Shown here piece after piece: positions 14,279-24,525 of a DNA stretch of 48,921 bases. Location: IMG/VR virus record IMGVR_UViG_3300024352_000154, positions 1 through 48,921 of that record, one strand, 5' to 3'. The first letter of the stretch is position 1. Every line of letters starts with the position of its first letter. The translations under genes were made by a program, and so were the position numbers. Source of the DNA: a virus. Below the pieces are notes generated by a model that made no database searches, was not told the DNA's origin, and saw nothing but the letters and a program-made list of their open reading frames with translations.

Positions 14279-14285
14279 TATTTAT
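14279..14285 (-). promoter_or_regulatory. Late promoter, ATAAATA core
   Basis: The minus strand reads CGATAAATAC. It lies 22 bases before the 471-residue gene and overlaps the stop codon of the preceding gene (14282-14284). It would drive the block down to the Dps-like gene. Confidence 0.72.
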
Positions 14286-14941
14286 CGTTTTGCTATACTG
14301 CCGCCTGTTAACAGATTAGCCTTCATATCTAGGGCATTTTTAGCAGTACCGTCTTTATTTTTAGGTGTTTTTCCGGCTTTATTTTTGTATACAGGACCCA
14401 CACTAACCATACCTGCACTAGTGCCTCCCGGTGTTGCAGTTTCGTCAAACTTATCGATTCCACGACTCTGCATTCCGCCCTTCTTACGTTTAGCGGCTAA
14501 TTCTTCTAAACCGTGACGTACTTGCTCTAAATTCTGTTCTAAACCCATGAACATGCCGCCTTTGGCTAACTTAGTAATTTGATGCCAAGTTGCTAGGTCA
14601 TCGCTTTCTGCCATACGTGCTAATTCTTGTAACTGTTTACGTGTTTGCAAAATGCGTCCTTTTAACGTCATAGGATTTGCTTTATTGTGACTGTGAATCA
14701 TAGGATCCATAGGATCATCTGTAGCGGCAATAGGTGCTTCTAAGGTAAGTTGATCTGCAACAGTTTCGCTCATCTGTGCCATTTGTACAGCCTGCGCGGC
14801 CAATCTTGCAGGAATACCTTCTTTAACAAGTTTATCCTGTGCTTGTTGTTCGCTTAGTCCTTGTGCTAATAATGCCTTGGCACGTTTAGCCAAAGCCATC
14901 ATATCAATAACACCTTCGTTTATAATGTCTATCAATCTCAT
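14282..14941 (-). CDS. Putative virion-internal protein, 219 aa
   Basis: The N-terminus MRLIDIINE-G is the best match in the window to a T4 capsid-targeting peptide ending in an I-x-E-G prohead protease site. After it come helical segments: residues 15-60 with a LAQGLSEQQAQDKLVKEG turn, and residues 95-150 with possible coiled coil. A basic, Gly/Lys-rich tail follows. No catalytic motif is visible. It overlaps the HAD-metallopeptidase gene by ATGA. If the N-terminus is cut as predicted, the mature protein would begin at Gly10. Confidence 0.7.
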   Translation of the reverse strand: MRLIDIINEGVIDMMALAKRAKALLAQGLSEQQAQDKLVKEGIPARLAAQAVQMAQMSETVADQLTLEAPIAATDDPMDPMIHSHNKANPMTLKGRILQTRKQLQELARMAESDDLATWHQITKLAKGGMFMGLEQNLEQVRHGLEELAAKRKKGGMQSRGIDKFDETATPGGTSAGMVSVGPVYKNKAGKTPKNKDGTAKNALDMKANLLTGGSIAKR

Positions 14942-16683
14942 TTCTTTTTTCCTTGACGCATATTAATTTGCCAGTGTGCTAATTGTTTTTTACGTGGACT
15001 AGCAGAATCGCTACTGCGTATCTTTTTTAACTGTGCTATGCTCATGCCTTTAGTGATGCCGTGACGTTTACTATCACCTTTATCTTGTGGATTTTTTCCA
15101 TCGGCAAAGTTTTCATCTACATTAAATGTCGGATCAACTTTTTGACGCGGCATATTCTTAGGCCGCTTTGGATCAACCGGGTCAATGTCTGTGGTATCAA
15201 GGCCCAACTTTTTCAAAGCCGCAATATATTTGTGCTCTTCTTCTTCACTGCCAAAAGATACAATAGTACTAGGAGGCCCTTTACCAAAATCTTTATTTGA
15301 TAAATTTTTTAAGTTGGCAATATTCTTACCTAACTTGTACCAATCATACACATCACTTACATCAACTCTAACAGTGCCTCTAGGCATTGTAGGTTTAATT
15401 TCAGGACCTCTTGGTTTTTCATTAGGGTGCTGGTCTTCTTCTGCGTGTTTAAAATATTGTACTTGACGTTCACGTTTCTCTGCACCGGCGCGAGTTGGAT
15501 ACTTACCTAAGTTCTTATTACCATGTTTGCTTTTTAATTCGTAACCGCCTTTAACTTTAACAATATGTTCGTTAAACTGTTCTGGATTCATTTTACCCCA
15601 GTAACGTAGCAATACTCCAGCAAGAGCATTGGCTTCGTTTTCGTCTGGACTGCCAGTTGCACCATCTAATTCTCTTGCTTCGTTTTGTTTGCGATGCACT
15701 AATTCGTGTGCTAGTGTTCGCATAATATCCATTTGATGTCTATCTTTAACAGATACAACTATGTCTTGTGTTTCAGGATCAAAGTATCCAAGTGCAGTAG
15801 TCTTTGTATCACCTACTAATTTAATACGTGGTGCTTGTTCTATTTCTAAAAGTTTGATAGCCCATAATGCAAAGTCTTTGATACGTTGCTTTTTATCTGG
15901 AGTCCATGCTTCCATCAATCCGCCGCCGTCACCGCCGTCTCCCGCAGGCACACTACCTACACCACTGTAGCCTGCATCGGTACCATATAGTCCGTAAGGA
16001 CCTGGTCCATATAACGCACCGTATTTGTTTCTGCGTTTTTTCTTACGACCTTCGTCTACATCTTTGTCACCACTAGTGGCAATTAATTTTCCTTGACTTC
16101 TATCTAGACTTTTTAACTGCTGTGGTTCGTGTTCTTCTTCACCTTGTCCCACACGTTTAGCACGTTTAAGTCCATCTAATATTACTTGTAAACTATCTTC
16201 GTCTGCTTGATATTTGATACCAATACCGCCAGCGGCTTCCCAAGCACTGATATTACTACCTCTGTCGTCAATTAATACGTTAGGCATTCCGCTAGGATTT
16301 CTAGCGTACTTGGCTTTGTTTGAAACAATGTAAATGTTGTCTGGCAGTTGATTTAAGTGTTCATCGATCCAAATACGTTTGTATTTTTCACTGCCTTCGT
16401 GGTCGCCGCGTAATGGGCTAGAACAAATATTGTAGCCACCGGCCACATCAACTACAATATCAATTAGTTTGTCTGCTGTAGGAAACTTTGGTAGACGTGC
16501 AAAAAAGTCTGTTCCTACCATTTTGTTTAATGTAGGATCAGTCTTCGCTGGTGGAATGTCTCTGTAGTTTCCGCTTTTAATGCCAGCAAGTTTAGCATAC
16601 TCTGTGAAAAAGTCTGCAAGAACTCCGTCCATGTCTACATAGACTTCCATGCCTTGGGGTAATTCTAAATCGCTTGCTCTCAT
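14938..16683 (-). CDS. HAD phosphatase-metallopeptidase fusion, 581 aa
   Basis: Residues about 12-190 form a HAD-type hydrolase: YVDMDGVLADFF (Asp17, Asp19) and a downstream VLIDDRGSN motif, similar to 5'-nucleotidase-like HADs. Near residues 322-330 is LAHELVH, a zinc HExxH motif, followed about 20 residues later by an ENEAN Glu that could be the third ligand. Two basic segments follow, one with a KREKQ-like AEKRERQVQYFK stretch and one ending with LAHWQINM. A Gly/Tyr-rich linker (about 215-255) joins the halves. The start overlaps the 95-residue gene by ATGA. HAD plus zincin on one chain, in a cluster of putative injected proteins, is unusual. Targets are unknown. Confidence 0.78.
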   Translation of the reverse strand: MRASDLELPQGMEVYVDMDGVLADFFTEYAKLAGIKSGNYRDIPPAKTDPTLNKMVGTDFFARLPKFPTADKLIDIVVDVAGGYNICSSPLRGDHEGSEKYKRIWIDEHLNQLPDNIYIVSNKAKYARNPSGMPNVLIDDRGSNISAWEAAGGIGIKYQADEDSLQVILDGLKRAKRVGQGEEEHEPQQLKSLDRSQGKLIATSGDKDVDEGRKKKRRNKYGALYGPGPYGLYGTDAGYSGVGSVPAGDGGDGGGLMEAWTPDKKQRIKDFALWAIKLLEIEQAPRIKLVGDTKTTALGYFDPETQDIVVSVKDRHQMDIMRTLAHELVHRKQNEARELDGATGSPDENEANALAGVLLRYWGKMNPEQFNEHIVKVKGGYELKSKHGNKNLGKYPTRAGAEKRERQVQYFKHAEEDQHPNEKPRGPEIKPTMPRGTVRVDVSDVYDWYKLGKNIANLKNLSNKDFGKGPPSTIVSFGSEEEEHKYIAALKKLGLDTTDIDPVDPKRPKNMPRQKVDPTFNVDENFADGKNPQDKGDSKRHGITKGMSIAQLKKIRSSDSASPRKKQLAHWQINMRQGKKK

Positions 16684-16967
16684 TTTTTATTTACCGGTTT
16701 TTCGCCTGTCATGTAAGGTAAACTAAACCATAACTGAAACCACTCAGGTGTTCCAGGTTTAATGTTTTGTTCTCTCTGTATTCTGCCTTTATCACTGCCA
16801 GTAACACTGATGTTACTGCCCTGATACTCGTGTAGTCTTGCGGCATGACCTAAGCCTGCAAGATACTGCATAGATTTAATTTCGTATATAGGATCAGAAG
16901 GATCAAGTAAGCAGTCGTCTGGACTGTCTTGATTTAAATTTTCTGTACTGATTCTATATTGTTTCAT
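16680..16967 (-). CDS. Unknown protein with EWF-LWFSLPY motif, 95 aa
   Basis: A soluble protein whose C-terminal third carries PGTPEWFQLWFSLPY, an aromatic motif that recurs in shortened form (GSAEWFSW) in the Pol-beta-type protein at 19089-19943. The N-terminal part is acidic with two Asp-Pro steps. It lies between the HIGH-type nucleotidyltransferase gene (3-base gap) and the HAD-metallopeptidase gene (ATGA overlap). The shared motif suggests a common binding partner or packaging signal within this gene set. Function unknown. Confidence 0.66.
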   Translation of the reverse strand: MKQYRISTENLNQDSPDDCLLDPSDPIYEIKSMQYLAGLGHAARLHEYQGSNISVTGSDKGRIQREQNIKPGTPEWFQLWFSLPYMTGEKPVNKK

Positions 16968-16970
16968 TTA

Positions 16971-17942
16971 TTATGAAACCTTAACAACAGTAAATCCTGC
17001 TTTTACGTAGTGATCGTGAGCATAATTCTTTGCGTGTTCGCGACCTTTAGTAGTAGTTACACGGGGTGTTCTTTCAACTTCATTTCCGTCCTTGTCAATA
17101 AGAGTAAAACGGAATGAATACTCTTCTGGATCCGGTCCATTAACATATTCATCATCTTCGCGTTCACGACGTCCAAAGCCTGTGCGACTAGAATCGTAAT
17201 CGCGTTGATACGCATCGTAACTACCGTAACGGCCTTCTTCTAATTCTGACATTTTCATAGCATCTTTTTCCTTCTTAGGTTCTTTTTCTTTTTTAGGCTC
17301 TTCTTTTTTCTTAGGTTCTTCTTTTTTCTTAGAATCTTTTTTCTTTGCTTTTTCCTTCGCCTTTTCTTCATAGGGCATCAAGTACTCGGCAACTAAGTCA
17401 AAGAATGGTTTACCCATAACAGGTGTTTCTGAACTTACGCCAGCGGCATCGCTAAATGCTTGTCTGTCGCCTTTGGCTACTGCTTCACGTAAACTTGTAG
17501 CAGAGCTCTTACGTAATTCTAATTTTGCTTCTTCTATACTGTCGTGGAACAGTCTAATTTCTGGAAAATTGTATTCGCCGTGCGGACCAGACTTTCCATT
17601 ATAATCTTGTACAGTAGGAACTACCCATGCTTCGTCAGTAACGATGATTAATTTTACTGCACCGTGTTTCTGATATACATAACTGGCTAATGTTAACCAA
17701 CTTGTTTCGGCAACAATATGTCCTGTAACATCAGGCCAAATAACTTTCATACATTCTGTTTTTACATTGTATGGCAGTGGGTCTTTTGGTCCTACAGTAC
17801 TTTCATTAGTACCAACGTACCATACATCTTTAGTAGCGGCAGTTTCCCAAGCGGCTTTATGTCCTTTGTGCGGAGGATTGAATCGACCAAATATAATGGC
17901 TACTTCACTTGTTTTATTTTCAAATAAATTTCTTAATCTCAT
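16971..17942 (-). CDS. HIGH-type nucleotidyltransferase with Lys/Glu linker, 323 aa
   Basis: After a short basic N-terminal peptide (MRLRNLFEN) comes the HIGH superfamily loop GRFNPPHKGHK (His25, His28). The second signature, SSATSLREAVAKGD at residues 146-159, is also present, so the cytidylyl/adenylyl-transferase core (about residues 12-190) looks complete. Residues about 198-230 are a Lys/Glu/Pro repeat linker. A separate C-terminal domain of about 80 residues follows, starting with a Tyr/Arg/Asp-rich patch. By family it transfers AMP or CMP from a triphosphate to a phosphorylated small molecule (NMN, pantetheine-phosphate or similar). The substrate is not determined. It lies one gene away from two other nucleotidyltransferase-like genes. 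Confidence 0.82.
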   Translation of the reverse strand: MRLRNLFENKTSEVAIIFGRFNPPHKGHKAAWETAATKDVWYVGTNESTVGPKDPLPYNVKTECMKVIWPDVTGHIVAETSWLTLASYVYQKHGAVKLIIVTDEAWVVPTVQDYNGKSGPHGEYNFPEIRLFHDSIEEAKLELRKSSATSLREAVAKGDRQAFSDAAGVSSETPVMGKPFFDLVAEYLMPYEEKAKEKAKKKDSKKKEEPKKKEEPKKEKEPKKEKDAMKMSELEEGRYGSYDAYQRDYDSSRTGFGRREREDDEYVNGPDPEEYSFRFTLIDKDGNEVERTPRVTTTKGREHAKNYAHDHYVKAGFTVVKVS

Positions 17943-17943
17943 A

Positions 17944-19092
17944 TTATTCCCCAGGAGTCCACTGGTCTCTGTTTACTAACTTTACATTACCGAATTTCTT
18001 TTCAGGGCCAGCATAGCGTACACGACCTTCTCCGTTTGTGTCCCAGATATCTCCTTGCTCGCCTTCAACCTGTGCAAGTATTTGGTTTTTCATTGATTGT
18101 ATTTGTTTAACTAGAGAAAATATAGCATCTACAGCGTTAGGATGGGCTTCTATTTTAGCCTGTATTTTTTCTTGTTTTCCTGCACTAACTTTTGACTTTT
18201 CCAACCATGCGTTAAAATTCTGTAAACCTAAACTGCTTAACTGTTTAGCTCTTGCTGTTTGATTTACATAGGTGTAGAATATATTCTTAAGGTCACTTAA
18301 CCCAGCAGTATCGGACAAGAATCCTTCGATTTGTTCTGCGTGTTGTTGTGCATAACCTTCAATGTTATCAATCATCTTAGTATCGATACTAACAGATTTT
18401 TTATTGTATATCGGACCTTGTACAATTAATTTAGGATTAGCATTAAATTGATCAAAATCGTCTAACGGTTCTTGTTCACTGTCATCCATTCCAAATTGTG
18501 GGAAATAAGCATGACCGACAACCATTACATCTGCATAAGCAATACGCTTACCTAAATCACTGTCGCCTCTGACATGATAACAAGTTTGTGATTTAGGATT
18601 TGGACAGAATGTGTATACTCCGTCTTTTAAATCGGGCCTGTTTAAAAATAATGCGTCAGCATAGACAAAGCCTACAAAATCTTTTGGAGTTGCCGCATCA
18701 AATGCTGGATATAAATTTGCAAACTTGGCGGCAAATTCTTCACGTTGTTTACGCTCTTCTTCTGTCTTAGGTGTACCGCTCTTGTTAGCAATAAAATCTT
18801 TTACTGCTTCTGGATTATCTGTCTTAGCACCACGTGCCCAACCGTTGTGTCCTGCTAGAATTAATGGTCCATTCTTTGTTTCACGACCCCAATAGATTTG
18901 AGGATTACCGTCCCATTTCATGCGAATGCTTTCAGAACCTTCTTGTGTAGCGATTTCTTTAACGTGGTCTAATGCTTCGATGGTACCGTCGATGCCGTAG
19001 AAGAAAACTAGATCTTCGAGATGGTTGAATGCACGGCCCAGTTTCTTTTTAACTGTTTCTGTGGATTCAACAAATAGTTCTCTTAATCTCAT
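17944..19092 (-). CDS. KxDG ligase/nucleotidyltransferase-like protein, 382 aa
   Basis: The N-terminus MRLRELFVE-S closely resembles that of the HIGH-type neighbour and of T4 Alt, which is packaged in the head. At residues 58-62 is MKWDG, the K-x-D-G motif I of DNA/RNA ligases and capping enzymes (Lys59), followed by N-P and a strand with Arg70. Later segments (residues about 135-200) have the alternating strands expected of a nucleotidyltransferase domain, but I cannot place motifs IV and V with confidence. From memory this resembles a conserved T4-like phage family of unknown function (possibly DUF6267). Covalent nucleotidyl transfer is a hypothesis. It has an ATGA overlap with the Pol-beta-type gene. 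Confidence 0.6.
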   Translation of the reverse strand: MRLRELFVESTETVKKKLGRAFNHLEDLVFFYGIDGTIEALDHVKEIATQEGSESIRMKWDGNPQIYWGRETKNGPLILAGHNGWARGAKTDNPEAVKDFIANKSGTPKTEEERKQREEFAAKFANLYPAFDAATPKDFVGFVYADALFLNRPDLKDGVYTFCPNPKSQTCYHVRGDSDLGKRIAYADVMVVGHAYFPQFGMDDSEQEPLDDFDQFNANPKLIVQGPIYNKKSVSIDTKMIDNIEGYAQQHAEQIEGFLSDTAGLSDLKNIFYTYVNQTARAKQLSSLGLQNFNAWLEKSKVSAGKQEKIQAKIEAHPNAVDAIFSLVKQIQSMKNQILAQVEGEQGDIWDTNGEGRVRYAGPEKKFGNVKLVNRDQWTPGE

Positions 19093-19943
19093 TCTTCGCC
19101 CCTTGACTGCTTGGGACCTTTACGTTGTTTCCATTTTTTATCTGTACTGCACCAGTAACGTCCATAAGTACCTTCTACTACGCCTTGCATCCATGAGAAC
19201 CATTCGGCAGAACCTTCTTTAACATCTTCAGGCTTTTTGCCTTCGTTGCCAGGCCAGTTCTCATCGGCTAGTGCGTGTTGAATTTTTGGATTTTGTTCTT
19301 TACCTGGTAGTGCGGCAATAATTCTTTCTACATTACCTAAGTCAGCGGCAGTAGCATGAGCACCGATTAAAATTTTAGCAACTTCGTCTGCATTGTGAGA
19401 AACAAAGTCTGCCTTCTTTCCATTTTCATCTCGGGCAAACAGCCCTTGGAATCCGCTCCACATTAGTCCGTAAGGATATCTTTGGTTACGAGTTTCTTTA
19501 GCAATACTGGAAAGTAGTATGTGCTTATGTAAACCTTTGAATGGAGTATTTTCAATGCTATAATCGTGTTGATGAAATTTACTAACAGAGCCAGCATCTT
19601 TAACAAACATAATATCTGCTTGTGCAAACTTATCGCCGTTAGGAACTTTAATGTGTACATTGATGCCAGTTAGTGCAGATTCGGTGCCTCTATCTTGAAA
19701 GTATGTTTTTAATTTTTGTCTTGCTTCTTTGGCTGTCTTAACTTTAAAAAAGTCTAACATGGACTGCTCGTCGACCATTAAGTCCATGTCTCCAGAACTG
19801 GCTTTATGGCCGGCACTGCCAACAGGAATTAAATCAATGCCCTGCGGCATCATTGATTGCGCCTTGGCTAGTACTTCCTTGGCTTCATCCTTGCCAAATG
19901 GTTCTACATCAGGAAATACATTTCCACCTTCTAATAGGATCAT
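19089..19943 (-). CDS. Pol-beta-type nucleotidyltransferase, 284 aa
   Basis: Residues 42-57 read GSAGHKASSGDMDLMV, the GS...DxD signature of the Pol-beta nucleotidyltransferase superfamily (Asp52, Asp54); QADIMFV supplies the third acidic residue (Asp110). This superfamily includes CCA-adding enzymes, kanamycin nucleotidyltransferases and minimal nucleotidyltransferases. The middle part is helical. The C-terminus has GSAEWFSW, shared with the 95-residue protein, and a basic Trp/Lys-rich tail. The N-terminus is short (MILLE-GG), which still fits an L-x-E-G protease site. RNA, a small molecule or a protein could be the acceptor. Confidence 0.8.
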   Translation of the reverse strand: MILLEGGNVFPDVEPFGKDEAKEVLAKAQSMMPQGIDLIPVGSAGHKASSGDMDLMVDEQSMLDFFKVKTAKEARQKLKTYFQDRGTESALTGINVHIKVPNGDKFAQADIMFVKDAGSVSKFHQHDYSIENTPFKGLHKHILLSSIAKETRNQRYPYGLMWSGFQGLFARDENGKKADFVSHNADEVAKILIGAHATAADLGNVERIIAALPGKEQNPKIQHALADENWPGNEGKKPEDVKEGSAEWFSWMQGVVEGTYGRYWCSTDKKWKQRKGPKQSRGEE

Positions 19944-20284
19944 TCATCTCTCCCATCATAAACACCGTTTTCGATGTTATGTTTTTCTTCGTGGAACATT
20001 TTAACAGCCAAGTCCTGTACTTCTTCGGGATCGAATAATACTTTTGGGTTTTGGGTGATTTTGAATTTATTGCAATAAACTGGTATGGCTTTATCGATGC
20101 AGGGCATAAATGACATTTCGTTGCACTTGCCGCCGGATTTCAACTTGCCTTTTAATTCAGCGATTACAGGATAAACTACCTTACGATAAAAACGTGGGTC
20201 GTTGTGCATAAAAAACTTTAAATCATCGACGAAATCGACGTCTTTAAACTGTTCTGCTTGCTTATCTACATCATTTATTTTCAT
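19940..20284 (-). CDS. Unknown protein, 114 aa
   Basis: A soluble protein with three Cys (in GGKCNE, MPCIDK and VYCNKF contexts) and an acidic, His-containing tail; no known domain. I chose the ATG at 20284 over an in-frame GTG at 20329, because the late promoter core at 20338-20344 would place the transcript start almost at that GTG, while the ATG leaves a leader of about 45 bases with GGTGAT before it. It is the first gene of the late unit leading into the nucleotidyltransferase cluster and overlaps the Pol-beta-type gene by ATGA. Confidence 0.66.
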   Translation of the reverse strand: MKINDVDKQAEQFKDVDFVDDLKFFMHNDPRFYRKVVYPVIAELKGKLKSGGKCNEMSFMPCIDKAIPVYCNKFKITQNPKVLFDPEEVQDLAVKMFHEEKHNIENGVYDGRDE

Positions 20285-20337
20285 ATAATCACCATGTTCT
20301 GCATAGAGCCGCGGATATACATACTCCACTAATAGAG

Positions 20338-20344
20338 TATTTAT
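20338..20344 (-). promoter_or_regulatory. Late promoter, ATAAATA core
   Basis: The minus strand reads GCATAAATACTC, matching the other late sites except for the first base of the extended motif. It lies in the 77-base gap between the end of the proteostasis unit (20362) and the nucleotidyltransferase cluster. Confidence 0.7.
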
Positions 20345-20361
20345 GCTATTTTACAACTGTA

Positions 20362-21006
20362 TTAAATTTCGCTGATTAGGTACATTTCGTCCACTCTGCG
20401 TATCTTATTGCCCAGGAATAGTCTGCACATTCCTAGGGTCTTTTCATTTGCGGCGTAAAAGTAGCCTTCGGAGTGGTATGTACGCTTTAGCAGTTTAATG
20501 CTGGGAATCTGCTCTGCCCATGCGTGGAAACTTTCGCTAGAATCACGTAGAGGATTTACAGTTACTCTATACTTGTGCGTATACTTTTTAGATATAATAC
20601 AGTTAGGGTTAGTTAATAGAAACTTCCTAACTTTATCGTCTGCAGGTTTAGTTACTTCTTTAACATGTCCTAATAGTTGAACAGCATCTAATAAAGAATC
20701 ACTGTTGGTGTAAATGCTTAATGTGTCGCTTTCTACACGCAACAAAAAATCAGTTTCTTTATTAAGTAAATCTACAAGTTTGTTTATGTAGATTACATCA
20801 CTGACTGTAGCATATTTCTTACGCCAGGATCTAAGTTGTACTCTACCATCCGGGACGGCTTCAATTTGATCACTAAGAATCTTGATTGAAGCCATTGCCC
20901 GAGCGATAGTTCTGCTACGAAACTCCGAAGCAAAAACATTTATTACACTAATCTTGTTGACATATTTGTCAAAAAACAATTTAGATGTTTGCTTGTACAG
21001 TTTCAT
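20362..21006 (-). CDS. Unknown protein, 214 aa
   Basis: A basic, soluble protein with mixed alpha/beta character and no recognised family. Its N-terminus (KLYKQTSKLFFDKYVNKI) is strongly basic and aromatic, and the centre has two strand-rich stretches. Three in-frame ATGs (21042, 21030, 21006) lie within the end of the ClpA-like gene. I chose 21006 (26-base overlap) because the first good protein-like sequence begins there, but no strong ribosome site decides it. It is the last gene of the DnaJ-Def-ClpA unit, which suggests a role linked to protein quality control or host takeover. Confidence 0.6.
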   Translation of the reverse strand: MKLYKQTSKLFFDKYVNKISVINVFASEFRSRTIARAMASIKILSDQIEAVPDGRVQLRSWRKKYATVSDVIYINKLVDLLNKETDFLLRVESDTLSIYTNSDSLLDAVQLLGHVKEVTKPADDKVRKFLLTNPNCIISKKYTHKYRVTVNPLRDSSESFHAWAEQIPSIKLLKRTYHSEGYFYAANEKTLGMCRLFLGNKIRRVDEMYLISEI

Positions 21007-23221
21007 TCTGTAATTCGAGTTTAATTTCATCGTCTTCAACATTGATGTTTACTGCTCCACCCTGTTTCAGACCACCAAACAACATAAGTTTGGATAATGG
21101 ACGCTTAATATCCTTATCGATTACACGTTGCAATGGGCGAGCACCCATCTTCTTATCAAAGCCCTTATCTACCAAGTAGTCAATTGCTTCGTTGCTGATT
21201 GTAATCTTAATGCCCTTATCCTTGACCTGTGTTTTTAACTCAACTAAGAACTTGCCAACAATTTTAATCATTGTTTCTTTGCTTAGTTTACCAAATGTAA
21301 CAACACCATCTAAACGATTGCGGAACTCTGGAGCGAAGAATTTCTTAAGTTCTTTATCTTCGTAGTCATTATCTTGACTACCAAAACCAATAACGTTCTT
21401 TTCAGCATCTTGTGCGCCAAGGTTAGTAGTCATAATCAAAATAATGTTACGAGCATCTGCTACTTTACCATTAGATCCTGTTACAAAACCATTGTCCATA
21501 ATCTGTAATAGGATAGTTGCTACATCTGGATGTGACTTTTCAATTTCGTCTAACAATAGAACACAATGTGGATTCTCTTGTAGTTTAGTAATCAACAAGC
21601 CAGCGTTTTCTTCAAAGCCAACATATCCAGGAGGGCTACCAATCAACTTAGATACGCTGTGTTTTTCTTGATACTCCGACATGTCAAAGCGAATAAGTGG
21701 AACACCTAACTGTTTACTAAGTTGTTTTGCGGCTTCAGTCTTACCAACACCAGTTGGCCCCATGAATACAAAACTACCCACTGGTTTATTATCAGATTTA
21801 AGTCCTGCTTGTGCTACAAGAATCTTATCAACGATTTCGTCAATGGCTTCATCTTGCCCATAAACTTCACCTTTAAGGTTCTTTTCAAGGTTAACAAGAT
21901 TTTCGTTTTCTTTTTCCTTGACTGTGTCTTCGGGAAGTTTAACCATTTTTGCTAATTCGTATTGAATCTCAGGAACATCGACAATCTTATGTTCTGCGTT
22001 CTTAATATTGAAACGACTACAAGCCACATCAATTAGATCAATTGCTTTATCTGGTAATTTCTTATCTGTCATATATTTTACAGATAATTTAACTGCTGTT
22101 TCAATAGCCGCATCTGTAATTTCAGCACCGTGATGTTTTTCGTAATACTTCTTAATACCTTTAAGAATATCTACTGCTACTTCTGGAGTAGGCTCGTCAA
22201 CAGTGATGCGTTGGAAACGGCGCATTAACGCACGATCCTTTTCAAAGTACTTACGATATTCTTCCCAAGTAGTAGATGCAACTACTTTAATGTTGCCTTT
22301 GCTTAGAGCAGGCTTCATCATATTAGCCAAGTCATTGGCATTACCTTGTCCACCTGCGCCTGCGCCACTAATCATGTGTGCTTCATCGATGAACAATACA
22401 GTTTTGCCTTTGCCTGTTAGTGCCTTAAGTACTAATTTAAAACGTTCTTCAAAGTCACCGCGATATTTACTACCAGCAAGCATAGCACTAATGTCTAAGT
22501 TATAGACTGTATATTCTTTTAAGAAGTCAGGAACAGCACCATTAATAATATTATGTGCTAGGCCTTCTGCGATAGCAGTCTTACCTACACCAGGGTCGCC
22601 TACTAACAATACATTATTTTTAGTTCTGCGACCGAGCCCTAGCGCAATTTGTTCTAGTTCTTCAGTTCTACCGATAACTGGATCGATTTTATTTTTCTTG
22701 ACTTGGTCATTGAGGTTAGTAGTAAATGCTTTCAGTGCTTTTTCACTTTGTGCATCTGTGACCTGTTCTTCTTCGTCTTCATCGATTTCGCTGTTAATAA
22801 AATCAGCAAACTTTTCACGATCCACGCCGCCCTTATTAATATAGAATACAGCGTAACTGCGCTTTTCGCTAAGTGCGCTCATAAACACATCTACAAGCTC
22901 AATGCTTTGACGTCCGCTGAAAAGGACTTGTGTGAATGCACGATTAAGAACACGCTCAACAGTTTGAGTCTTCTTAGGTTTAAATCCTTTGGGAATTGGA
23001 TCTATTTTAATTTCGTCTAATTGATTTTTAAGATAGTGTTCGAGATTCTTTTTAATGTAATCCCCGTCACCACCGAAGTTTACAAGAAGTTCGTAGAACT
23101 TTTCTTCGCAGAGCATAGCAAAAATAAGATGCTCTAGCGTGACATATTCGTGTCCTAATTTTTTACAGTCTGCAACAGCCTTTTCAAAAACTACTTGCAG
23201 TTGATCACTTGGTTCTACCAT
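20981..23221 (-). CDS. clpA: ClpA-like AAA+ unfoldase
   Basis: 746 residues, about the size of bacterial ClpA (758). It has an N-terminal Clp repeat domain (YVTLEHLIFAML), Walker A of D1 (GDPGVGKT near 210) with Walker B FIDEAH, and Walker A of D2 (GPTGVGKT near 490) with LLDEIEK. There is no long ClpB middle domain. An NVIGF sequence in D2 is the type of IG[F/L] loop that docks ClpA or ClpX on ClpP. So the protein probably feeds substrates to host ClpP; no clpP is visible here. GAGGAAAT precedes the ATG at 23221. It shares an operon with deformylase and DnaJ. Confidence 0.95.
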   Translation of the reverse strand: MVEPSDQLQVVFEKAVADCKKLGHEYVTLEHLIFAMLCEEKFYELLVNFGGDGDYIKKNLEHYLKNQLDEIKIDPIPKGFKPKKTQTVERVLNRAFTQVLFSGRQSIELVDVFMSALSEKRSYAVFYINKGGVDREKFADFINSEIDEDEEEQVTDAQSEKALKAFTTNLNDQVKKNKIDPVIGRTEELEQIALGLGRRTKNNVLLVGDPGVGKTAIAEGLAHNIINGAVPDFLKEYTVYNLDISAMLAGSKYRGDFEERFKLVLKALTGKGKTVLFIDEAHMISGAGAGGQGNANDLANMMKPALSKGNIKVVASTTWEEYRKYFEKDRALMRRFQRITVDEPTPEVAVDILKGIKKYYEKHHGAEITDAAIETAVKLSVKYMTDKKLPDKAIDLIDVACSRFNIKNAEHKIVDVPEIQYELAKMVKLPEDTVKEKENENLVNLEKNLKGEVYGQDEAIDEIVDKILVAQAGLKSDNKPVGSFVFMGPTGVGKTEAAKQLSKQLGVPLIRFDMSEYQEKHSVSKLIGSPPGYVGFEENAGLLITKLQENPHCVLLLDEIEKSHPDVATILLQIMDNGFVTGSNGKVADARNIILIMTTNLGAQDAEKNVIGFGSQDNDYEDKELKKFFAPEFRNRLDGVVTFGKLSKETMIKIVGKFLVELKTQVKDKGIKITISNEAIDYLVDKGFDKKMGARPLQRVIDKDIKRPLSKLMLFGGLKQGGAVNINVEDDEIKLELQNETVQANI

Positions 23222-23732
23222 TTAATTTCCTCTGTTTTTTCAGTGCTAAATCTAACTTTAACTTACTTACTCTTTTGGTAAAAGTAATGCCGTCTAAGTG
23301 GTCAATTTCATGTTGAATACACTTGGCGTCATAACCACTTAATGTAATTGTACATTCTTTTGCTGTCTTGTCAAGATATTTTATTGTAATATTATTAAAT
23401 CTGTTAATCTTTATGAACAAATTTGGAAAACTCAAACAGCCTTCCTCGTCTATACACTCGTCGGATCCGCTGACAATTTCGGGATTAAACATGGCAAATG
23501 GTTCTTGCCCACTAGGTTTGACTACAACAACTCTGCGATCAAATCCAACTTGATTAGCGGCAATGCCGATGCCACGGCCGCCTAGCATTATCTCGACCAT
23601 GGCTTGTTCTATTTGGTTAGGATCGATGCCGCAATTAAAATCAAAGGGCTCTAATTTTGTATAGAGTATTGGGTCTGGATCTGTTCTAAGATAAAAATCT
23701 TTAGGTTCTGTAACGGTCTGAAAGTTGCTCAA
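23205..23732 (-). CDS. def: Peptide deformylase
   Basis: All three motifs are present: GIGIAANQ (motif I), EGCLSFP with the metal-binding Cys, and QHEIDHLDG with two metal-binding His and the catalytic Glu. It removes the formyl group from new polypeptides, using Fe or Zn. The frame is open up to an ATG at 23843, which would put about 140 bases inside dnaJ; deformylases normally start close to the DPDPILY segment seen here. I therefore propose the TTG at 23732 (about 175 residues, 32-base overlap with dnaJ). That start is not certain. Phage deformylases are known in marine T4-like phages. Confidence 0.88.
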
Positions 23733-24525
23733 TTTGAATCTTATCTTCCGTGAATAGTATTTTGGGAATTGTAATTTGTACTTGTATAAACAAATTTCCT
23801 CTTTGATGATTGTGTGGACCGACTGGAAGTCCGTAACTATCACACTTAATCATTTGACTAGGTTGTATGCCTGCCGGAACTTTGATTTCTAATTCTTTGT
23901 CTTCTAATGTTTTAAAGCGGATTGTTTTTCCTAACATAGCATCAAACGCAGAAATTTCTACTTCTGCATATAAGTTCCTGCCATCACGTTTGAATCTTGG
24001 ATGTGGAAGTTCAATAATTTGTGCTATTACATCGCCCCTAGGCATATTAGGAATGCTGTCGTCTCCTAATCCTCTAAAACGAATTGAGTCACCGTTTTGT
24101 ACACCTGCAGGAATACTTAATTGTAGTGCCTGTTCTTTTCCACTAGGTAATCTGATACTGCCAGTAACTTCTTTGCCGACAAGTATTTCTTCTAAAGTCA
24201 TTTCGACACGGATATTGATATTCCTGTTCTTTCTGGACTGCTGTCTAAAGCCAGCACCAAAGGGATTAGCACCAAACATGGCACCAAACAAATCATTCAT
24301 GTCGTTCATATTGCCAGTATGAAAACTATACTGTGGCATTGGGTTGTCGTATTGAGCTCGTTTTTGGTCATCACTAAGGGTGCGATATGCTTCTTCAATT
24401 TGTTGAAATTTAGAAGTATCGCCGCCTCTGTCAGGATGGTGCTTTGAAGCCAATTTACGATATGCTTTTTTGATATCGTCTTGGCTAGCAGATTTTGAAA
24501 CTCCTAGTATTGAATAATAATCCAT
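23701..24525 (-). CDS. dnaJ: DnaJ/CbpA-type co-chaperone
   Basis: 274 residues. The J-domain covers residues 1-70 with the HPD motif (His30-Pro31-Asp32). A Gly/Phe-poor linker with many Met/Asn follows (about 71-100), then two beta-sandwich substrate-binding domains (for example [16 protein letters not shown] and IKVPAGIQP) as in CbpA/DjlA-class II proteins. There is no Cys-rich zinc domain. It should stimulate host DnaK ATPase. It is the first gene behind the strong sigma70 promoter at 24555-24583. In T4 relatives, chaperones are recruited for head and tail folding. The host gene, if it exists, could have been the source. Confidence 0.93.

Follow-up and report, generated by a model that had tools for sequence, protein, structure and literature searches.

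Three nucleotidyltransferase genes in one phage operon

What use would a phage have for three different nucleotidyltransferases encoded side by side? The question arises from a 48,921-nt stretch of viral DNA (IMG/VR record IMGVR_UViG_3300024352_000154, positions 1 to 48,921; hereafter the window), in which genes for a Pol-beta-type, a KxDG ligase-like and a HIGH-type nucleotidyltransferase are consecutive on the minus strand and transcribed in that order. Successive genes of the operon overlap by 4 bases or lie 1-3 bases apart. The first gene (19089..19943, minus strand) encodes a Pol X-like nucleotidyltransferase of 284 aa with the motif GS..SGDMDL, which matches neither a Pfam nor a PHROG family. 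The second (17944..19092, minus strand) encodes a predicted ligase-like covalent nucleotidyltransferase of 382 aa, with KWDG, assigned to Pfam DUF6267, and the third (16971..17942, minus strand) a HIGH-type (HxGH) protein of 323 aa, with HKGH and a PHROG cytidyltransferase match, that resembles nicotinamide mononucleotide (NMN) adenylyltransferases. Gene order and motifs bear out a first-pass annotation of this DNA, which had called three different nucleotidyltransferase types in consecutive genes.

Judging from its genes, the source phage is large and T4-like; PHROG matches include DNA polymerase, clamp loader, an ATP-dependent (ClpA-like) protease, endolysin, holin and virion proteins. The region also lies within two longer, possibly incomplete IMG/VR records of 212 and 270 kb (loci L006 and L008), in which ten of 11 proteins compared with the window are 100% identical and one is 99% identical.

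We tentatively favour, at slightly less than an even chance, the reading that the operon specifies a predicted virion-delivered kit for nucleic-acid end repair, with RNA as its likeliest substrate. Its observed basis is a combination of motifs, predicted folds, gene pairing, one gene fusion, peptide signals and a protease gene in a record that shares the region. T4-type capsid-targeting peptides would draw the three proteins into the prohead, the prohead protease would trim the peptides, and the enzymes would enter the cell by injection together with the phage DNA. Broken ends would then regain lost nucleotides, or receive extra ones, through the Pol X-like enzyme and be sealed by the DUF6267 enzyme via a lysine-AMP intermediate, while the HIGH enzyme, working in concert with the ligase, would supply nicotinamide adenine dinucleotide (NAD) or another adenylylated compound for the chemistry. 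The substrate would most likely be RNA, in particular tRNAs that host defence nucleases have cut. Such a kit supposes late expression of the genes, packaging of their products in this phage, enzymatic activity, RNA as the substrate and a role for the HIGH protein, all of which we infer. Injection of the enzymes, if it occurs, would let phages oppose RNA-cutting defences from the first minute on, an advantage out of reach for RNA-repair genes that are expressed after infection. A ligase-like active site with two steady partners also makes the function of DUF6267 testable.

The ligase gene belongs to two conserved pairs

A first scan with the window DUF6267 protein gave 255 relatives, of which the best 80 were analysed (L006-L009, L013 and L015, near-identical copies of the window region, are counted within the 80). 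Both partners were present in 34 loci, only the Pol-like gene in 27 and only the HIGH gene in 19; none lacked both. The gap to the ligase gene was at most 50 nt for 53/61 Pol-like and 49/53 HIGH genes. All of the best 80 of 255 relatives thus keep at least one partner, and the genes are conserved as pairs; the scattering that would have spoken against the first-pass reading is not seen.

The sample was widened by scans based on Melnitz (at least 600 matches, 80 kept), XaC1 (2 loci) and S-H9-2 (7 loci) and by loci L096-L098, which were retrieved via the Pol-like protein and contain it by construction. In a profile census of 177 DUF6267 loci, HIGH was found in 135: 5/5 isolates, 53/80 window-clade, 68/80 Melnitz-like, 7/7 S-H9-2-like and 2/2 XaC1-like loci, and 0/3 of those retrieved via the Pol-like protein. 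In loci with 3 kb or more of downstream sequence, HIGH lay less than 1 kb away in 39/50 window-clade and 32/34 Melnitz-like loci. The Pol-like gene was detected in 57/74 window-clade loci whose upstream sequence was long enough to hold it and in none of the Melnitz-like (0/57), isolate (0/5), XaC1-like (0/2) or S-H9-2-like (0/7) loci. Ligase and HIGH genes adjoin in S-CAM4 and S-H9-2, and in S-PM2, whose record is that of a spontaneous deletion mutant, they are fused in a single 591-aa protein (DUF6267 at 6-389, HIGH at 410-582). The earlier idea of a set of three therefore stands as regards linkage, but the gene neighbourhoods describe it better as two pairs, Pol-ligase and ligase-HIGH, with the ligase common to both. 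The ligase family itself is widespread: tblastn with two DUF6267 members gave matches in 463 and 462 phage records, most of them from (marine) cyanophages, with at least 80% query coverage in 105 and 124 of them, and among the matches listed nearly all relatives are annotated as hypothetical.

Recurrence of the same pairs in distant phages, once as a fusion, argues against the view that the genes are independent capsid cargo, together merely as internal head proteins and sharing no common pathway. Several neighbouring open reading frames (ORFs) do have targeting-like N-termini as well, and HAD and peptidase domains, encoded downstream in the window, are shuffled between loci. However, S-CAM4 and S-H9-2 keep the ligase-HIGH adjacency though their ligases lack targeting peptides, and the pairing also extends to a ligase partner undetected by the DUF6267 profile; we consider independent cargo very unlikely.

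That second ligase partner was found through the Pol-like protein. The window protein and its L033 copy gave no tblastn match in phage isolates; the L019 copy found 18 records, including Pseudomonas phage PA5oct and its kin and Sinorhizobium phage Phosso, with relatives also in Agrobacterium phage Atu_ph07 and Flavobacterium phage immuto. In Phosso and Atu_ph07 a KxDG gene lies directly upstream of the Pol relative and overlaps it, and in PA5oct the Pol relative is three genes downstream of a KxDG gene. These KxDG partners carry EGxV (PA5oct, Phosso and Atu_ph07) and KxV (PA5oct and Phosso). The DUF6267 profile detects none of the three, and Pfam RNA_ligase matches two of them, both under cut-off (E 0.002 for Atu_ph07, and 0.085). 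BFVD gives a 446-aa PA5oct protein, equated with the KxDG partner by length alone, as a structural relative of the window ligase (E 9.2e-4). In immuto no KxDG gene adjoins the Pol relative, which is followed by a 907-aa protein (L226, 6779-9502) annotated as NMN adenylyltransferase NadR and then by an NT5C-like HAD protein. The 907-aa protein contains HExxH motifs, and its Pol-beta, cytidylyltransferase-like and peptidase matches are weak and stay under cut-off; since the HIGH profile does not detect it, its echo of the window's set consists of these motifs and weak matches.

An ORF of 85-93 aa (K.TRSIL.EL ... ESAINL) lies directly upstream of the Pol-like gene in L037, L060, L072 and L228, and is conserved across several loci without HIGH as well as in L228, a contig from a metagenome-assembled genome. 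L227 and L228, both binned as Neomarinimicrobiota, carry the Pol-like gene together with the DUF6267 gene and probably derive from phage.

The KxDG protein resembles polynucleotide ligases

The KxDG protein scored 60.3 bits against Pfam DUF6267 (PF19782; cut-off 27), and the profile was matched by 31/31 aligned members (E 1). Members of this and our other alignments (A1-A5) were picked from larger lists. Across the 31 sequences, which diverge down to 17% identity and include cyanophage, Methylophilales and Xanthomonas phages, K59, D61, G62, D146, F162, E355, G356, V358, K371 and V373 are invariant. All but V358, the valine of motif IV, were also invariant in a second alignment (A3) of 44 sequences chosen out of 177 loci with a DUF6267 match. 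Covalent nucleotidyltransferases are defined by motifs I, III, IIIa, IV and V, which in DUF6267 correspond to KWDG (K59-W-D-G62, 18907..18918, minus strand; 31/31 and 44/44 sequences), Asp, Phe, EGxV and KxV, respectively.

An AlphaFold (AF2) model of the protein had a predicted local distance difference test score (pLDDT) of 89.6 and a predicted template-modelling score (pTM) of 0.84. In a second look at this model with VIA, the 50 rows listed, of 277 with Z at least 2, were all polynucleotide ligases or a capping enzyme, with Z 6.5 for T4 Rnl2 and Trl1, 6.4 for an archaeal DNA ligase, 6.3 for ligase IV and 5.6 for the vaccinia capping enzyme. A few rows are chains of non-homologous end-joining complexes, which we take to be ligase IV from the residue range. 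The scores are low (4.8-6.5), and values below 8 may reflect merely a common arrangement. Motifs and predicted fold together make it likely that the KxDG protein is a covalent, ligase-like nucleotidyltransferase, resembling T4 RNA ligase 2, Trl1 and DNA ligases in motifs and, at low Z, in predicted fold; on the same features RNA and DNA ligases are indistinguishable.

The protein also differs from these ligases. Residues 238-342 of the model, between motifs IIIa and IV, are mostly helical, and just nine residues follow motif V, leaving no room for a C-terminal OB domain. Motif III is Asp in DUF6267 versus Glu in T4 Rnl2 by inspection, and T4 Rnl2 gave no profile match. A PDB profile search found no significant relative (best E 0.98), and hhalign of DUF6267 with HIGH, the intended control, gave nothing. 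A literature search, with subscription journals mostly outside its reach, turned up no paper on DUF6267.

The first protein has a Pol X-like predicted fold

Pol-like sequences for alignment (A2) numbered 24, chosen out of 64 loci with a Pol-like match; copies below 200 aa and identical copies were excluded. Compared with Pfam at E 1, these 24 matched 15 families, Pol X not among them, and three matched NTP_transf_2 (best E 0.027). A PDB profile search gave nothing significant; its best rows were a peroxygenase (E 0.04) and the uridylyltransferase Tailor (E 0.17), the best Pol-beta-superfamily row, and the 11 matches at E 10 included no Pol X chain. The catalytic residues G42, D52, D54 and D110 are nevertheless present in 24/24 sequences, residue 43 being Ser in 21 and Thr in 3 (metal/NTP motif G42-S43...D52-M-D54, 19782..19820, minus strand).

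The AF2 model built from the 24-sequence alignment (pLDDT 82.8, pTM 0.70) gave a clearer answer. Foldseek ranks 1-38 in the PDB were all DNA polymerases lambda, mu and beta (best E 3.2e-7, template-modelling score 0.42), with CutA turning up among further polymerases past rank 38. VIA aligned 165-175 residues at 3.2-3.7 Å with a best Z of 11.2. The matched segment of Pol beta begins between 104 and 149 and finishes near 335, which corresponds to palm and thumb; with its start at the palm, the protein has neither a lyase nor a finger domain. The Pol X of African swine fever virus (ASFV) also lacks these domains, which are not a strict Pol X requirement. On its model, the 284-aa protein is Pol X-like, with a palm bearing three Asp plus a thumb, though without a Pol X profile match. 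The structure comparison proposed in the first-pass annotation thus placed the Pol-like protein with Pol X and the KxDG protein with ligases at low Z, Foldseek alone giving nothing for the latter.

Such a fold raises the alternative that the enzymes repair DNA ends or gaps in the incoming genome, the Pol X-like protein filling and the ligase sealing, as in viral Pol X-ligase systems for base excision or end joining. Besides the 38 top-ranked polymerases, the VIA rows for the KxDG protein are in keeping with this, as they include DNA ligases I, III and IV, archaeal and ASFV ligases (Z 5.0-6.4). There is also a viral precedent in PgVPolX, a Pol X-lyase-ligase protein with a Pol-beta-like core and ligase activity; according to the account in PMC5537341 it comes from a giant virus, is one protein and serves DNA base-excision repair, all unlike the window set. 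Yet our phage already has a DNA ligase of its own, the Pol-like protein starts at the palm without lyase and finger domains, and the partner ligase of Atu_ph07 weakly resembles RNA_ligase. T4-type phages can, moreover, mend DNA ends via recombination. We regard DNA repair as unlikely, if still worth serious consideration.

Injected nucleotidyltransferases might instead attach nucleoside monophosphates to host proteins or RNA polymerase, much as T4 Alt, a packaged modifying enzyme in the account of PMC9026906, acts with ADP-ribose. The modifying domains of polyvalent proteins are described as including Pol-beta nucleotidyltransferases (PMC5512222). The predicted fold here is Pol X-like with a thumb, however, and the gene found constantly beside it encodes a ligase-like protein, which leaves protein modification highly improbable.

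The HIGH protein is closest to NMN adenylyltransferases

G27, H28, K53, D103 and R152 occur in 26/26 aligned HIGH members; residue 25 is His in 22/26 and Thr in 4/26. Active-site residues, whose loss in homologues would have spoken against the first-pass reading, are thus retained in all three enzymes (Pol-like 24/24, KxDG 31/31, HIGH 26/26). The HIGH protein matched the PHROG cytidyltransferase family at E 4.4e-16. A PDB profile search was led by the NMN adenylyltransferases NadM (E 8.8e-4), NadR (0.005) and MJ0541 (0.0095), followed by pantetheine-phosphate adenylyltransferases (0.025), the best matches spanning about 55 residues. At E 0.1, the NCBIfam model TIGR00125 matched 25/26 members and two NMN adenylyltransferase models matched 20/26 each; all nine NCBIfam matches of the window protein, TIGR00125 included, were under cut-off. 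The protein shares with NadM and NadR the HxGH motif, a K-x-P loop and the C-terminal S-x-[TS]-x-x-R, and by sequence it is nearest to NMN adenylyltransferases. It differs from them in the shortness of the match (~55 residues), in falling below curated cut-offs and in being fused to or adjoining a ligase.

This likeness would fit a cofactor kit, in which the HIGH protein, as an NMN adenylyltransferase, rebuilds NAD+ after host depletion and the other two genes are unrelated neighbours. NadM, NadR and the archaeal enzyme are its nearest solved structures by profile, the two NMN adenylyltransferase models match most members, and phages are known to rebuild NAD, as described, together with phage RNA repair, in the review PMC9503650. 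But S-PM2 has HIGH and the ligase in a single protein, the two genes adjoin in most relatives whose sequence is long enough to show it, NadV was not found in the large records, and the window protein lies below every NCBIfam cut-off; we think this alternative improbable.

Fusion, conserved ligase-HIGH adjacency and NMN adenylyltransferase likeness are, for their part, compatible with a more specific scheme: a preformed RNA-repair complex in the virion, in which HIGH makes NAD+ (or a 5'-adenylated end), the ligase consumes it and the Pol X-like protein restores nucleotides. This scheme is quite unlikely in so specific a form. If it were true, tRNAs cut by host defence would be mended before any phage gene expression.

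N-termini resemble capsid-targeting peptides

Capsid-targeting sequences of T4 are about ten N-terminal residues long, and head-maturation cleavages are made by gp21, according to the account in PMC9026906. The packaging-like N-termini noticed at first pass do resemble such peptides. The ligase begins with the putative capsid-targeting peptide MRLRELFVE (19066..19092, minus strand), HIGH with MRLRNLFE (17919..17942, minus strand), and the Pol-like protein with a putative cleavable propeptide, MILLE, before GGNVF (19929..19943, minus strand). Among distinct N-termini, [LIVFM]xE at residues 5-17 occurred in 35/35 ligases, 33/34 HIGH proteins and 22/24 Pol-like proteins; after shuffling the frequencies were 0.43, 0.42 and 0.33, so the motif is common by chance. 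The start of each N-terminus was trimmed by aligning it with the window protein, a procedure biased towards similar starts, and matches beginning after residue 8 were dropped. In the window 10/39 ORFs have the motif, three of them being the Pol-like, ligase and HIGH genes; the HAD protein does not have it.

In 40/61 loci the Pol-like protein opens with a prefix whose last residues, L-x-E (x = L, V or N), precede GG, with MGG starts in 1/61 and no visible start in 4/61; the Pol relatives of Phosso, Atu_ph07 and immuto begin directly with MGG. Among cultured carriers, Methylophilales phage Melnitz and Pelagibacter phage HTVC008M have ligases with a targeting-like N-terminus. Residues 1-16 of the ligase model have pLDDT below 50. 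The 270-kb record sharing the region encodes a gp21-type prohead protease (Peptidase_S77, E 7.8e-27) and gp23, and the distant Pol relative of PA5oct is annotated as a virion structural protein by electrospray tandem mass spectrometry. The window N-termini thus fit T4 capsid-targeting peptides at the level of sequence, and the three enzymes probably travel inside the virus particle. In this they would recall T4 Alt and the internal head proteins IPI-III, with a packaging peptide of about ten residues (PMC9026906, as above) and a gp21-type protease in a record sharing the region; the window cargo differs in consisting of nucleotidyltransferases and in that its cleavage is putative.

In gp23 of L190, YLSE is followed by SASTGATSAGN, and a similar ATAGATSAGN is found in small downstream ORFs of the 219-aa type (L018, L024 and L048). 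Such peptides may perhaps mark a shared prohead-protease context.

A late-promoter candidate before the operon

One CATAAATA lies before the operon (20338..20345, minus strand), a weak late-promoter candidate whose spacing to ORF starts is off: the listed GTG start is 16 nt away, and an internal ATG 61 nt. Five GATAAATA sites on the minus strand of the window (36857, 33709, 28609, 14286 and 10684) each precede an ORF start by 27-34 nt. Exact TATAAATA was rarer than expected in the window (1 versus a mean of 5.0).

Across window and relatives, NATAAATA stood 20-65 nt before an ORF start in 126/218 cases, ranking top of 21 letter permutations (next, 65/153, overlapping NATAAATA by one base); it was chosen after CATAAATA had been seen before the operon and is thus a post-hoc motif, the loci are partly redundant and some permutations overlap. 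Within 200 nt upstream, NATAAATA was found for the 129-aa ORF that precedes the Pol-like gene in 7/10 cases (six near-identical copies plus L010), for the Pol-like gene in 1/44, the ligase in 3/62 and HIGH in 1/52, with a background of 0.047. GATAAATA lies 30 nt before the Pol-like gene in L046 and 32-34 nt before the ligase in L038, L040 and L061. Because a re-check showed that the operon's own CATAAATA misses the spacing, and with the gp21 and gp23 loci lacking the motif, the claim of a late promoter for the operon was dropped; late expression is possible.

RNA as the likeliest substrate

The case for RNA is that the phage encodes a separate DNA ligase and some 30 tRNA genes, and that its records yielded no further RNA ligase; the polymerase-like fold speaks for DNA. 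The large records contain the DNA ligase and 31 and 32 tRNA matches, of which 30 and 31 are above cut-off. No match to RNA_ligase (PF09414), the Rnl1 type (PF09511) or RtcB was found in these possibly incomplete records; the PF09511 search detects T4 and was silent in all control genomes. In our judgement RNA is appreciably more probable than DNA as the substrate. RNA end repair or NAD-type chemistry, both put forward at first pass, remain supported as likely uses.

The first-pass annotation knew of no named system with this set, a statement that finds no support, since Pol-beta nucleotidyltransferases alongside RNA ligases are a named theme. In jumbo phages, RlaP nucleotidyltransferases of the Pol-beta superfamily accompany RNA ligases, mirror them in distribution and are predicted to replace missing nucleotides ahead of ligation, in the account given by PMC7824862. 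The window Pol-like gene, paired with a KxDG-type ligase, resembles these pairs of RlaP (PF10127) and ATP-grasp RNA ligase. It differs in giving no RlaP profile match and in having a DUF6267 ligase without detectable relation to Rnl2, and the window set adds a HIGH partner and packaging signals. The two large records gave no PF10127 match at E 10, while 4/14 control genomes did. By analogy, the best reading is that the kit would work like an RlaP-RNA ligase pair without matching RlaP, the HIGH partner and packaging being its unusual points. PADLOC matched none of five proteins.

A number of observations weigh against the repair kit. As to the enzymes, Foldseek found no significant PDB match for the KxDG model (best E 0.17), hhalign of DUF6267 with T4 Rnl2 gave nothing (probability 0.2 per cent, with shallow alignments), RNA and DNA ligases tie structurally for this protein in VIA, DNA polymerases are the best Foldseek matches of the Pol-like protein, and none of the 24 Pol-like members matched RlaP at E 1. 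The possibly incomplete large records gave no NadV match, so that a role in NAD supply would need host NMN. As to packaging, the N-terminal motif also occurs in 7/36 other window ORFs, 16/61 Pol-like copies have another N-terminus, and the DUF6267 proteins of S-CAM4, S-H9-2, S-RIM44 and S-PM2 begin without a targeting-like peptide; the 212-kb record gives no gp21 or gp23 match, and the PA5oct KxDG gene carries no mass-spectrometry annotation. As to expression, the operon's CATAAATA is the sole one of six window sites to miss the 20-65 nt range, and no NATAAATA was found in gp21 or gp23 loci.

The HAD-metallopeptidase and neighbouring genes

Downstream of HIGH lies a gene for a 581-aa protein with an NT5C-like HAD domain and HExxH (HELVH) (14938..16683, minus strand). 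The HAD gene, first described as in tandem with the nucleotidyltransferases, is indeed downstream, but a 95-aa ORF missed at first pass intervenes (16680..16967, minus strand; relative in 39/80 loci). The HAD domain barely passes Pfam NT5C (25.2 bits, cut-off 24.8), and there is weak support for calling it a metallopeptidase (DUF6782, E 0.0018, 18 bits, under the cut-off of 27). By BLAST, the HAD domain occurs in just 6/80 loci, four of them identical to the window, which speaks against its being a fixed member of the set. In loci of at least 9 kb, a HAD profile matched 6/57 window-clade, 11/27 Melnitz-like and 0/3 S-H9-2-like loci; the profile was built from four sequences, and three source loci (L003, L061 and L226) are among its own matches. 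With a HAD gene also in immuto, the HAD-metallopeptidase is, from its distribution, recurrent cargo, loosely linked and no fixed part of the set.

Downstream of the HAD gene, a 219-aa ORF (14282..14941, minus strand) begins with the capsid-targeting-like MRLIDIINE. The 129-aa ORF that precedes the Pol X-like gene (19940..20329, minus strand) has a relative in 43/80 loci. The 95-aa ORF and the Pol-like protein have in common G-[TS]-x-EWF near the C-terminus. Farther upstream of the operon, neighbouring ORFs encode a ClpA-like protease (20981-23221), a peptide deformylase (23205-23843) and, by eye, a J-domain-like protein (23701-24525).

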